The notes beneath the pieces were generated by a model. The model was not told the DNA's origin and did no database searches. It worked only from the letters and a program-made list of their open reading frames with translations. From Pseudomonadota bacterium (GTDB lineage: Bacteria; Pseudomonadota; Alphaproteobacteria; Acetobacterales; Acetobacteraceae), in contig JAKBAD010000001.1 of assembly GCA_021809435.1 (NCBI GenBank), positions 62,001 through 126,000 on the forward strand: 64,000 nt of DNA. The letters run 5' to 3'. Positions 16,298-19,876 of the stretch are shown here, piece by piece. The first letter of the stretch is position 1. Every line of letters starts with the position of its first letter. The translations under genes and the position numbers were made by a program.

Positions 16298-16363
16298 GTG
16301 TTTAGCGGGGCGTTAAACTTTTTGAGATAGGCTTGGCCTGATTTGGCGCGGAGCGGCGGGGAA

Positions 16364-18061
16364 ATGGCGGGCGTGAGGAGCATGTTCAGAGACGCGGCGG
16401 CGCTGCGGGCGCTGCGGGCGGCGTTTGCGTTTGTTGAACTCTCGCCCGATGGCCGGGTGCTTGACGCCAATGAGGTGTATCTCGAGCTGATGGGGCTGGA
16501 GGCCGAGGCGGTGATTGGCCGGCCGCACCGCGAACAGGTGCCGGCGGATTATGCGGCCTCGCCCGAATATGCCGCGTTCTGGGCCCAGCTGGCGCATGGG
16601 GAGGTGGTGCACCGCGAGGTCTGCCGGGCGGGGCGCGATGGCCGCCGGCGTTGGCTGCACGCGGTTTATGCGCCCGAACGTGACCGCGCGGGGGCGGTGC
16701 GGCGCATCGTCGCCTTGGCATTTGACGTGACCGCGGAAAAGACCAGGGCGCTGCGCGATACGAGCATGATCGAGGCCGTAAACCGCTCGCAGGCGGTGGT
16801 GGAATTCGCGCTTGATGGCACCATTCTGGACGCCAACGAGAATTTTCTGGCGGCCATGGGCTACCGGCTGGAAGAGATTAAAGGCCGCAAGCACGCCATG
16901 TTCGTGACCCGCGATTATGCCGCCAGCGCCGACTATGCGCAATTCTGGCAGAGCTTGCGGGCGGGGGAGTATTCGTCGGGGGAATTTCGGCGTGTGCGCG
17001 GGGATGGCAGCGAGATATGGCTGCAAGCGGCCTACAATCCGGTATTCGATACGGACGGCAAGCTGGTGAAGGTGGTGAAGATCGCCTTCGATCTGACAGA
17101 GCGGATGCATGATGTGGGGTTAATCACCGCCGCCATGGGCCGGCTGGTGCGGGGCGAGCTGAACCAGGAAGTCACCACCCGGCTCATGCTCTCGCTCGAT
17201 CCTCTACGGCTTGATTTTAACGAGGCGGCGCGAATTTTACGGGACGCCATGCGCGCGATTGCGGGCGCGGGGGCGGCGGTACGGGATATGTCGGGGGCGG
17301 TGAGCGATTCGGCGGGGCAGCTGGCCGAGCGCACCGAGCGCCAAGCCGCCAGCCTGGAGGAGAGCGCGGCGGCCATTGCGGAAATTACCTCGATGGTCGG
17401 GCAGGCCGCCAACCGGGTGGAGGAGGTGCGGCGCGCGGTGGGCGGCGCGCAAACAGACACTGAGCGCTCGGAAGCGGTGGTGGCCGAGGCCGTGCAGGCC
17501 ATGGGGCGGATTGACGAGAGTGCCCGCCAGATTGGCCAGATTATCGGGGTGATCGATGAAATCGCCTTTCAAACCAACTTGCTGGCCTTGAATGCGGGGG
17601 TTGAGGCGGCGCGCGCGGGCGATGCCGGGCGGGGCTTTGCCGTGGTGGCCACCGAGGTGCGCGCCCTGGCTCAGCGTTCGGCCGATGCCGCGAAGGAGAT
17701 TAAGACATTGATTTCGGCCTCGGGCGCGCAGGTGGCCGCCGGGGTGAGCGCGGTGCAGAATGCCCGCGAGGTGCTAACAGGCATTGCCACGCATGTGGCC
17801 AGCATTAACCATACCGTGGCCAGCCTGGCCACCAGCGCGCGCGAGCAGGCCGAGGGGTTGAGGCAGGTGAATGAGGCCGTTTCGGAGATGGACAAGGTAA
17901 CCCAGCAGAGCGCCGCCATGGTTGAGGAGACCGCGGCGGCGGCCCAGTCTCTCGCGCAGGAGGGGCAGCGGATCATGGCGCTGTTGGCGAGGTTCGAAAC
18001 CGGCGAGGAGATCAAACCCGCGCCCCCGCCCGTGGGCCAACGTGAAGCCGCGTTGGTTTAG
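16364..18061 (+). CDS. soluble methyl-accepting chemotaxis protein with two PAS domains
   Basis: A 565-residue receptor without any membrane segment. Residues about 7-130 and 130-255 are two PAS domains in tandem, each with the [13 protein letters not shown] / [13 protein letters not shown] opening and a PAC-type end ([33 protein letters not shown]). A linker and a coiled-coil signalling domain follow, with the universally conserved hairpin tip around [20 protein letters not shown]. This is the tip that binds CheA and CheW. A cytoplasmic, possibly redox or energy-sensing receptor is likely, but no haem- or flavin-binding residues are evident. The ATG at 16364 is chosen over a TTG at 16343; ATG 16382 is also possible. 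No che or flagellar genes are adjacent. Confidence 0.92.
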
Positions 18062-18092
18062 GAGGCGGGGCCATCTCATATCATTTGGCGGT

Positions 18093-18737
18093 TTAGGCGT
18101 GGTCGATGACGAGGCCGTCGATCTCGTTGGCGACATCCTCGAACCGGTCGATCACGCGCTCGAGATGGTTGAATAACTCGCGGGCCACGATGAAGCCCAT
18201 GGGGTTGGTGGCGCCGTGGGTTTTAAAAGCGGTTTTCAGCCCCTTGGCGTGAATGTCATCCGCCTGATCTTCGAGCCGCACGAGGCGCCCGGTGAGCTCG
18301 TGGAGACGCGCGGCATTGGCGTGGATGTTGCGCAGGAGCGGCATGGCCTCGGCCAACAGGCGGGCCGAATCGACGATGATCGCCCCCATGTCGCGCATTT
18401 CGGGCGGGAATTCACGGAGTTCGTAGAGCCCCGTGGCGCGCGCTGTGTGCAGCATTTCGTCGATCGCGTCGTCCATGGCTGAGATCAGGCTGGTGATGGA
18501 ACCGCGATCGAAGGGCGGGAGAAAGCTGCGGCGCACGCTGCGCTTGACCTCGCGGGTGATGGTGTCGGCTTCGTCCTCGCGCTCGGTGATTTCGCGGATA
18601 TGCTGGTCCATGCCCGCGCCGCCCTGCAACAGGCGGGTGAGCGCGGCCGCCCCGGCGCTGAGGGTTTGGGCGTGGGCTTCGAACATGTCGAAGAACTGAT
18701 GCTTGCGGGGCAGCAGGGCCTGGAGCCAGTGAAACAT
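18093..18737 (-). CDS. DUF47 protein from an internal start within the NUDIX frame
   Basis: An in-frame ATG at 18737 begins MFHWLQALLPRKHQFF, which is where free-standing DUF47 proteins normally start. The resulting 214 residues are the usual family length. Directly upstream lies AAGGAGGAG, ending 6 bases before the ATG, one of the best ribosome-binding sites in the window. DUF47 may therefore be made both alone and as the C-terminal half of the NUDIX fusion. The sequence shows the site; actual use is inference. Confidence 0.65.
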   Translation of the reverse strand: MFHWLQALLPRKHQFFDMFEAHAQTLSAGAAALTRLLQGGAGMDQHIREITEREDEADTITREVKRSVRRSFLPPFDRGSITSLISAMDDAIDEMLHTARATGLYELREFPPEMRDMGAIIVDSARLLAEAMPLLRNIHANAARLHELTGRLVRLEDQADDIHAKGLKTAFKTHGATNPMGFIVARELFNHLERVIDRFEDVANEIDGLVIDHA

Positions 18738-19160
18738 GCGAAACTCCTCCTTGGCTGCCAGTAATCTGGTGAGCAGGGCGCCTTTGGTGTCCAGGGTTGC
18801 GAATTCAGCCGCGCGGAACCCGCGCATGAGCACGCGCAGGTCTGGTTCATCGACCAGTTTGGCGGCCTCGGGCAGGGGAAACCAGCGGCGCTCGCGCTGT
18901 GCGCGTTCAGGCCATTCAGCGAGTTCGGATGTGACCGCGAAGGGGTAGACATCCACATCCACCATCAGCGCGGCGCCGGTGCGCAACTGCTTGCGGTAGC
19001 GGTAACTGCCCAGGGCCGCCGGACAGGCCGCGCCTTCTATCCCCGCTTCTTCCAGTGCCTCGCGCGCGGCGGCGGCGTGGGGGCTTAGCCCCTTCATGCG
19101 GTTGCCCTTGGGCAGCACCCAGCGCCCCGTGCCGCGCGAGGTGACCAGCAGCACCTCCAC
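18093..19160 (-). CDS. NUDIX hydrolase - DUF47 (PhoU-like) fusion protein
   Basis: One open frame of 355 codons encodes two unrelated domains. Residues 1-141 are a NUDIX domain with WVLPKGNRMKG and REALEEAGIEG. The first conserved Glu of the NUDIX box is replaced by Leu25, as in a subset of alphaproteobacterial relatives. Residues 142-355 are a complete DUF47/PhoU-like helical protein of the kind that accompanies Pit phosphate transporters (FFDMFEAHA, FDRGSITSLISAMDDAIDEM). The first canonical start is GTG at 19160, but NUDIX-like sequence (QIAALPYRATSPALNAP) continues upstream in frame without ATG, GTG or TTG. No pit gene is adjacent. Function is open: the NUDIX part suggests nucleotide or inositol-pyrophosphate hydrolysis, the DUF47 part phosphate-related control. 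Confidence 0.8.
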   Translation of the reverse strand: MEVLLVTSRGTGRWVLPKGNRMKGLSPHAAAAREALEEAGIEGAACPAALGSYRYRKQLRTGAALMVDVDVYPFAVTSELAEWPERAQRERRWFPLPEAAKLVDEPDLRVLMRGFRAAEFATLDTKGALLTRLLAAKEEFRMFHWLQALLPRKHQFFDMFEAHAQTLSAGAAALTRLLQGGAGMDQHIREITEREDEADTITREVKRSVRRSFLPPFDRGSITSLISAMDDAIDEMLHTARATGLYELREFPPEMRDMGAIIVDSARLLAEAMPLLRNIHANAARLHELTGRLVRLEDQADDIHAKGLKTAFKTHGATNPMGFIVARELFNHLERVIDRFEDVANEIDGLVIDHA

Positions 19161-19387
19161 GGGGGCGTTGAGCGCCGGACTTGTGGCGCGGTAGGGCAGG
19201 GCGGCAATCTGGCGAACGGCACACCTCGGGCGGGAAACAGGGAGAGCGTGGGGGCTTATCGGAGGGAAGGGATGTCACGTCAATGTCATGAGAGGGGGCT
19301 GATGGGGGCGCATGGACAGGAGGGGCAAAGACCGCTACCACACTCGCCTTTGCCTGAATGAGATGAGCGAAAAGTGAGGAGCCCGAT

Positions 19388-19876
19388 ATGGCCGGTAGTG
19401 TGAACAAGGTGATCCTGGTTGGGAATCTCGGCAAGGACCCCGAGGTGCGCAATGCCCAGTCGGGCATGAAGATCGTCAATCTCACCGTCGCCACTTCCGA
19501 TAGCTGGAACGACAAGGCCTCGGGCGAGCGCAAGGAGCTGACCGAGTGGCACCGCGTGGTGATCATGAATGAGCGGCTGGCCGATGTGGCGGAGAAATAT
19601 CTGCGCAAGGGCTCGAAGCTTTATCTGGAAGGTAAGCTGCAAACCCGGAAATGGACCGACCAGTCTGGCCAGGACCGCTATACCACCGAGATTATGCTGG
19701 GCCGGTTTGGCGGCGAGCTGGTGCTGCTTGACCGCGCCGGTGGCGGCCAGGGCGCGCCCATGGGGGGCGATGAGTATGCGCCCCGCCCCGCCGCTCAGCC
19801 CAAGCAGGCGCCTCGCCAGGTGGGTGGCTGGGATGCCCGCCCCGGCCCGGACCTGGATGACGAAATTCCTTTCTGA
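19388..19876 (+). CDS. ssb: single-stranded DNA-binding protein
   Basis: A 162-residue SSB that coats single-stranded DNA in replication and repair. The OB fold spans about residues 1-110 and opens [19 protein letters not shown], with [22 protein letters not shown] in the middle. A flexible Gly/Pro/Gln-rich linker follows, ending in the acidic tip DLDDEIPF that recruits partner proteins. The ATG at 19388 is preceded by AGGAG. The gap of about 227 bp to the NUDIX gene holds the unassigned NUDIX extension and presumably the ssb promoter, which I could not pin down. Confidence 0.98.

Follow-up and report, generated by a model that had tools for sequence, protein, structure and literature searches.

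A NUDIX-PitR fusion gene with two candidate translation starts in Alphaproteobacteria

Can a single gene supply both a NUDIX-DUF47 fusion and a free DUF47 protein? The question is raised by a locus in the window (the 64,000-nucleotide stretch of an Acetobacteraceae genome that was analysed), where a NUDIX frame on the minus strand, 19217..18093, continues into a complete DUF47/PitR protein. The initial annotation proposed that one gene could give both proteins, and comparison with relatives backs this proposal since the fusion is in frame and its inner start is conserved. The reading that we favor, with a probability of roughly 0.68, is of a fused gene, accessory to the PitR (DUF47)-Pit module for phosphate, that is translated from two starts and would yield a NUDIX-PitR fusion and free PitR. 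The comparison shows the fusion, an inner ATG with a Shine-Dalgarno (SD) sequence, and an outer start position that is mostly AUU, AUC or AUA (collectively AUH) in relatives.

The fusion gene and its distribution

The minus-strand frame 18093-19160 encodes 355 residues without a stop and matches both NUDIX (PF00293; 6.7e-10) and PhoU_div/DUF47 (PF01865; 4.8e-40) in Pfam, so the in-frame fusion is real. The left end of the gene had been placed at 19160, which is too short, as the GTG at 19160 lies within the NUDIX domain. A conserved RQIAALPYR segment (the first beta strand, model residues 2-11) is found in frame upstream of this GTG, indicating that the gene begins near 19217. As a start codon GTG 19160 was rejected: its SD pairing is just -1.7 kcal/mol and the first beta strand would be cut off. 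From the aligned start codon the fusion frame (18093..19217, minus strand) encodes 374 residues plus the stop. The NUDIX domain occupies 18834..19217, with its first strand (residues E2-11 of the model) upstream of GTG 19160 and its Pfam match at 18834-19154. An AlphaFold model of the 374 residues, built with 32 sequences, has two confident domains (mean pLDDT 86.4) and a linker of low confidence (pLDDT <50; residues 143-172, 18702..18791), inside which the inner Met (residue 161) sits. A product begun there would be a free DUF47/PitR-like protein of 214 residues (18093..18737, minus strand; PF01865). A search for sigma-70 promoters and terminators in 18000-19500 found none, which carries no weight either way.

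The NUDIX part scores 39.5 bits against a family cut-off of 21.1. Its nearest solved relatives are diphosphoinositol polyphosphate phosphohydrolases (DIPPs), followed by Ap4A hydrolase, and Foldseek likewise returns DIPP folds. The full Nudix box is GX5EX7REUXEEXGU. In the window the first Glu is replaced by Leu, and the Arg of REXXEE varies among relatives. The catalytic EXXEE (E53, E56 and E57 of 374; 19047..19061, minus strand) is invariant in the 32 sequences of the alignment, and its glutamates are present in 147 of 149 fusions, the other two (L168 and L170) having Asp. The DUF47 part scores 137.6 bits with the PF01865 profile (cut-off 24.4) and 55.3 bits with TIGR00153, which is below that profile's cut-off of 104.3. 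It has the PhoU-like helical fold, with 3l39 (PhoU-like BT4638, its best solved relative) as the first Foldseek match at 8.6e-11.

Genome contigs were scanned for relatives, of which 180 were obtained; the best 80 of these 180 all match the query over its full length, from residue 1-3 to residue 353-355. By their names these 80 are Acidocella, Sphingomonadales and a few unplaced metagenome bins, and isolates such as A. facilis ATCC 35904 and A. aromatica DSM 27026 are among them. Within the window's genus, the fusion is present in 7 of 38 genomes (as judged by frame, with the match displayed). The window's assembly is in 12 contigs, and a sequencing or assembly error might have masked a stop between two genes; with the same fusion in other assemblies, isolates included, this explanation is almost inconceivable. 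Among relatives with two genes in NUDIX-DUF47 order (L125 and L178), the genes are separated by a gap, and a frameshift at the junction, which was looked for in these forms, is absent.

Among 289 genomes drawn from across the class, 47 have a DUF47 match and the fusion is confirmed only in the window and three genomes of one group (f36); 14 unfused loci were retrieved from this draw, the remaining ones being classed by frame length alone. A second draw took 249 genomes from the family of Sphingomonas sp. TDK1 (genome G336, locus L042). Some match is present in 97 of them and a full-length fusion in 77, while DUF47 without an adjoining NUDIX match occurs in eight and separate genes in one (G471). 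Each of the 14 fused genomes tested contains no DUF47 match other than the fusion itself. In the second draw, one fused genome (G581) also carries a remote DUF47-like match, at 27% identity (G581:C2:563428-564003). One more fusion of that draw (L183, G580:C3) has its DUF47 part spread over two frames, error and decay not being told apart, and is followed by a pit gene matched along its whole length. Another locus (L139, G332:C19) has a 64% identical NUDIX with one stop within the match, and neither DUF47 nor pit is matched within 4 kb; it is perhaps a fusion that lost DUF47. A locus assigned to Sphingomonas palustris (L006) falls in a ten-row tree set with the window and Acidocella, through misnaming or transfer.

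For comparison of the two starts, 149 distinct fusions were taken from 233 sources (the window and L001-L232). Of the others, 56 did not fit the sequence pattern used for selection (most of these are unfused loci) and the remainder were duplicate sequences. The pattern also passed over six genuine fusions. Their outer codons are CTG in L043 (with TTG two codons upstream), ATC in L126, ATT in L127 and L141, ATC after a GTG in L231, and ATG just before the motif in L232. The loci are related, and therefore the counts given below are not independent.

The inner start

The inner start codon (ATG, Met161; 18735..18737, minus strand) is preceded at six bases by the SD sequence AAGGAGGAG (18744..18752, minus strand; -10.9 kcal/mol). 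The layout is AAGGAGGAG-TTTCGC-ATG, at the point where free DUF47 proteins begin, and pairing as strong precedes 1.2% of the other codons in the fusion frame. The initial annotation had placed an ATG and an SD sequence at the normal beginning of DUF47, and this matches the free DUF47 proteins of other Alphaproteobacteria, which start at or within one residue of the aligned Met in L118, L120, L121, L124 and L125; in L119 a TTG is near it. The codon is ATG in 124 of the 149 fusions. A canonical start lies within two codons of the DUF47 start in 148 of 149 (null elsewhere 0.27), L207 being the exception: all others of the 25 fusions lacking the exact ATG have GTG, TTG or ATG no more than two codons away. 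In Blastomonas-like loci (L013, L016, L019, L022, L025, L031 and L187) the exact inner ATG is lost; six of the seven have an ATG two codons upstream and L013 has a GTG in place.

Pairing with the SD sequence peaks 5-6 nt before the inner ATG and reaches -5 kcal/mol or stronger in 72% of the 124 ATG loci, compared to 17% of 1112 other in-frame ATGs; 36% of the 25 loci without the exact ATG reach this value. In linkers containing TG[VI], Thr is encoded by ACA in 44 of 53 (26 of 885 elsewhere) and Gly by GGG in 48 of 53 (187 of 1174 elsewhere), so that the linker reads ACAGGGG. These rare synonymous codons are retained for the inner ribosome-binding signal. When codons were resampled synonymously, the median fraction of resamples with an SD as strong was 0.13, a moderate effect per locus. 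In 102 of 124 loci the inner SD exceeds the expected mean in strength, and in 22 it does not; linkers of the VKEG (Acidocella-like) and KSKV classes have a weaker SD than codon usage predicts. In eight relatives the retrieved region shows no NUDIX match, and their DUF47 frames begin at the corresponding ATG or GTG. SD pairing is -5 or stronger in six of the eight, and in two of the eight (L172 and L174) the letters of the start region are nearly those of fused relatives. The inner start is conserved across the fusions.

The outer start

In the window, the interval between the upstream stop and GTG 19160 contains no in-frame ATG, GTG or TTG. The putative outer start codon is GTT (19215..19217, minus strand), which aligns with ATG, GTG, TTG, ATT, ATC or ATA in relatives. 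Four bases before it is the SD-like GAGGTG (19222..19227, minus strand), which forms the best duplex of the region (-9.7 kcal/mol). GTT also follows GAGGTG in L002, L004 and L005, and GUU is the probable start codon of the window. An upstream frame slip in the window was considered from its letters alone and rejected, as the GUU relatives keep the GAGGTG(n)GTT layout though their upstream frames differ.

The alignment of outer codons takes as its reference the ATG that most Sphingopyxis and Novosphingobium loci have there. Among the 149 fusions the aligned codon is ATG in 42, GTG in 8, TTG in 5, ATT in 50, ATC in 30, ATA in 5, GTT in 4 and another codon in 5; these last five are all preceded by a canonical codon no more than five codons away. 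AUH is therefore present in 85 of 149. Seven of these have a canonical codon at most six codons upstream and were removed, leaving a test set of 78 (48 ATT, 26 ATC and 4 ATA). In this set the protein is conserved from the outer codon onward, the identity of the codon itself following from how the set was selected. In the AUH loci, SD pairing peaks 5-6 nt before the outer codon (mean -6.0); it is -5 or stronger in 79% of the 78, compared to 17% at 30 nt upstream and 20% of shuffles. Of the 55 ATG, GTG or TTG loci, 31% reach this strength within the same range of spacing. This pattern has the look expected of a weak codon offset by a strong SD. A preference for ATT is weakened as proof of a start since Ile at +3 is also ATT in 30 of 68, compared to 9% in the rest of the frames. 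In a tree of the 149 rows (FastTree only), AUH occurs in both main branches and 12 changes are needed for the three states.

Isoleucine at the start position is also found in unfused PKGN-type NUDIX genes of the Sphingomonas family. It is encoded by ATC in L181, L182, L185 and L186 and known by translation in L244 and L245; in L181 and L186 the upstream part of the frame is free of canonical codons. The distant NUDIX set, of which 17 of 24 loci fitted the pattern, includes 15 other loci, and ATG, GTG or TTG is available in all of these. Because the unfused genes also carry Ile there, the Ile start seems to belong to this NUDIX branch and to extend beyond the fusion. In the available part of PMC13009471, AUU and AUA starts with an extended SD are described as conserved in Staphylococcus aureus infC, cvfC1 and ccpN, and the references include pcnB of Escherichia coli as a further case of a non-canonical start.

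The two starts could be read in other ways. Only the full-length fusion might be made, with the inner ATG and SD as relics of a former NUDIX-DUF47-pit operon. L125 has just such an arrangement (separate NUDIX, DUF47 and pit in one direction, with 17 nt between the first two), the Blastomonas-like loci retain the fusion without the exact inner ATG, and the SD of a single locus exceeds synonymous resampling only moderately. A relic should decay, yet the SD survives differing linker peptides by way of rare codons, within a linker that is otherwise poorly conserved and of low model confidence. We consider the relic explanation unlikely. The outer start might instead be the TTG six codons downstream, which is present in 36 of 85 AUH loci and in 3 of 64 others, or a canonical codon far upstream, as 35 of the 78 AUH loci have one more than six codons away. 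However, an SD of -5 or stronger precedes the +6 codon in 0% of the 78 loci, a start there would truncate the first beta strand of the model, and 43 of the 78 have no in-frame upstream canonical codon, 23 of these also being without TTG at +6. Upstream codons contain no conserved protein and the far-upstream canonical codons have such an SD in just 9 of 35 loci, making another outer start improbable.

The window's own lineage raises a separate issue. With GUU as its outer codon and an upstream interval empty of canonical codons, its outer start could be dead, free DUF47 being the sole product and the NUDIX part decaying. However, the NUDIX part with the linker is constrained, with dN/dS of 0.13 between the window and L002 (0.17 for DUF47) and 0.08 between L004 and L005; values are looser at longer distances (0.20 for window-L004 and 0.29 for L002-L003). 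EXXEE is intact, the SD of the window is strong, and a strong SD is retained in all four GUU loci. A dead outer start is thus slightly less probable again than a displaced one. The purifying selection and the retention of EXXEE suggest that even this GUU, pit-less lineage produces and uses the NUDIX part.

Phosphate context, proposed function and known systems

The locus had been described as phosphate related, which applies to its relatives and not to the window. In the window the neighbors are a divergent ssb gene (19388..19876, plus strand) and a convergent PAS-MCP gene (16343..18061, plus strand), the latter at the place of pit in most relatives. In 78 of the 80 relatives (the best 80 of 180), the fusion is followed, on its own strand, by a pit-type frame belonging to one cluster; the exceptions are L002, which lacks it, and L033, whose sequence stops near there. 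Spacing between fusion and pit is mostly 10-20 nt in the loci inspected and about 160 in L006. A Pit-like F-D-x-x-NG-x-[HN]D motif is present in 77 of the 78 downstream frames. A pit gene elsewhere in the window's genome had been suggested as a check, and no PHO4 (pit) match is found in that genome (100% complete); the same holds for genome G020 (99% complete). In the window's genus a PHO4 gene adjoins the fusion in 5 of 7 fused members. The window's genome has PstC and PhoU.

Association of NUDIX with DUF47-pit is also seen without fusion. A NUDIX gene is near DUF47-pit in 6 of the 14 unfused loci examined (L113-L125 and L132), and these six all belong to the nine loci with a pit more than 55% identical to the query. 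The order is DUF47-pit-NUDIX in L118-L121, from two family groups (f5 and f54), possibly as one operon; L125 has NUDIX-DUF47-pit with a 17-nt gap, the NUDIX gene of L124 is divergent, and none is near L117, L122, L123 or the five unfused loci with a distant pit. L178 has NUDIX and DUF47 as two genes. As unfused NUDIX genes adjoin DUF47-pit loci, NUDIX is tied to PitR-Pit beyond the fusion itself.

If the gene has two working starts, ribosomes would start weakly at the outer codon, giving the NUDIX-PitR fusion, and well at the inner AUG, giving free PitR. The fusion would then be the minor product and free PitR the major one, since non-canonical starts in S. aureus are given as ~10% of AUG in poor medium in the accessible portion of PMC13009471. 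In the part of PMC11705898 that is available, PitR of S. aureus is reported to form homodimers, and two-hybrid analysis is reported to have detected no PitR-PitA interaction. From this homodimerization, the two products would be expected to mix in dimers, so that PitR homo-oligomers hold a minor share of NUDIX-bearing subunits. Close to the importer, the NUDIX domain may act on a polyphosphate-type metabolite, with Ap5A/Ap6A, short polyphosphate and a diphosphoinositol phosphate as candidates, and the hydrolysis would pass phosphate or energy status to the control of import. The window's lineage no longer has pit, which leaves the gene there as an orphan that probably works via another partner, perhaps Pst-PhoU. 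A tentative extension, which we regard as doubtful, is that the ancient near-cognate outer start (AUH; GUU in Acidocella) and the strong inner AUG make the NUDIX-PitR to free PitR ratio follow initiation stringency (IF3 and initiator-tRNA supply), with translation state tuning a regulator of phosphate import. If so, Acidocella would have a natural GUU start codon.

PitR, DIPP-like Nudix proteins and AUU starts are known kinds. Their combination in a NUDIX-DUF47 fusion is not described among the literature matches listed, and one candidate, PMC12210691, was rejected because the part seen concerns DUF4743, a match to the start of the word. The gene is of interest since it ties a polyphosphate-type hydrolase (by similarity) to the control of phosphate import by PitR-Pit, which is poorly understood. 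Its fused, split, NUDIX-less and pit-less forms, with AUG, AUU and GUU codons, are a natural series for tests of dual initiation and non-canonical starts. Gene finders limited to ATG, GTG and TTG misplace the outer start, as did the list of open reading frames used here.

Like S. aureus infC, cvfC1 and ccpN and E. coli pcnB, the fusions combine a clade-wide non-canonical start with a strong SD. Compared with conserved AUH starts, the window has GUU in place of a near-cognate AUU, AUC or AUA codon and retains the strong SD at proper spacing (-9.7 kcal/mol; group peak at 5-6 nt). Here, unlike in those genes, the putative outer start stands at the front of a gene with two domains and an inner AUG of its own. 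The DIPPs (human DIPP1/NUDT3 and yeast DDP1) and Ap4A hydrolases are the best sequence and fold matches of the NUDIX part and share EXXEE, a likeness by similarity only; here the domain is fused to a regulator and the first Glu of its Nudix box is Leu. Mycobacterial MutT1, a two-domain Nudix protein among the Foldseek matches, also joins NUDIX to a second domain, which is histidine-phosphatase-like and not DUF47. The closest counterpart is the PitR-PitA pair. In the available text of PMC13170248, PitR is a single PF01865 domain that forms a pair with PitA and governs the phosphate response, PitA co-occurring with PitR in 97.8% of the survey; 3l39 also served as template for S. aureus PitR, according to the part of PMC11705898 seen. 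That survey set, as described in the same available text of PMC13170248, was restricted to proteins with PF01865 alone, so fusions would have dropped out of it. The fusion has NUDIX in front of PF01865, and the putative inner product has PF01865 as its only domain. Like PitR, the gene has PF01865, is in single copy (14 of 14) and precedes pit in 78 of 80 relatives; it differs in its leading NUDIX domain and, in the window, in a pit-less state that is rare in the survey as far as its available text describes it.
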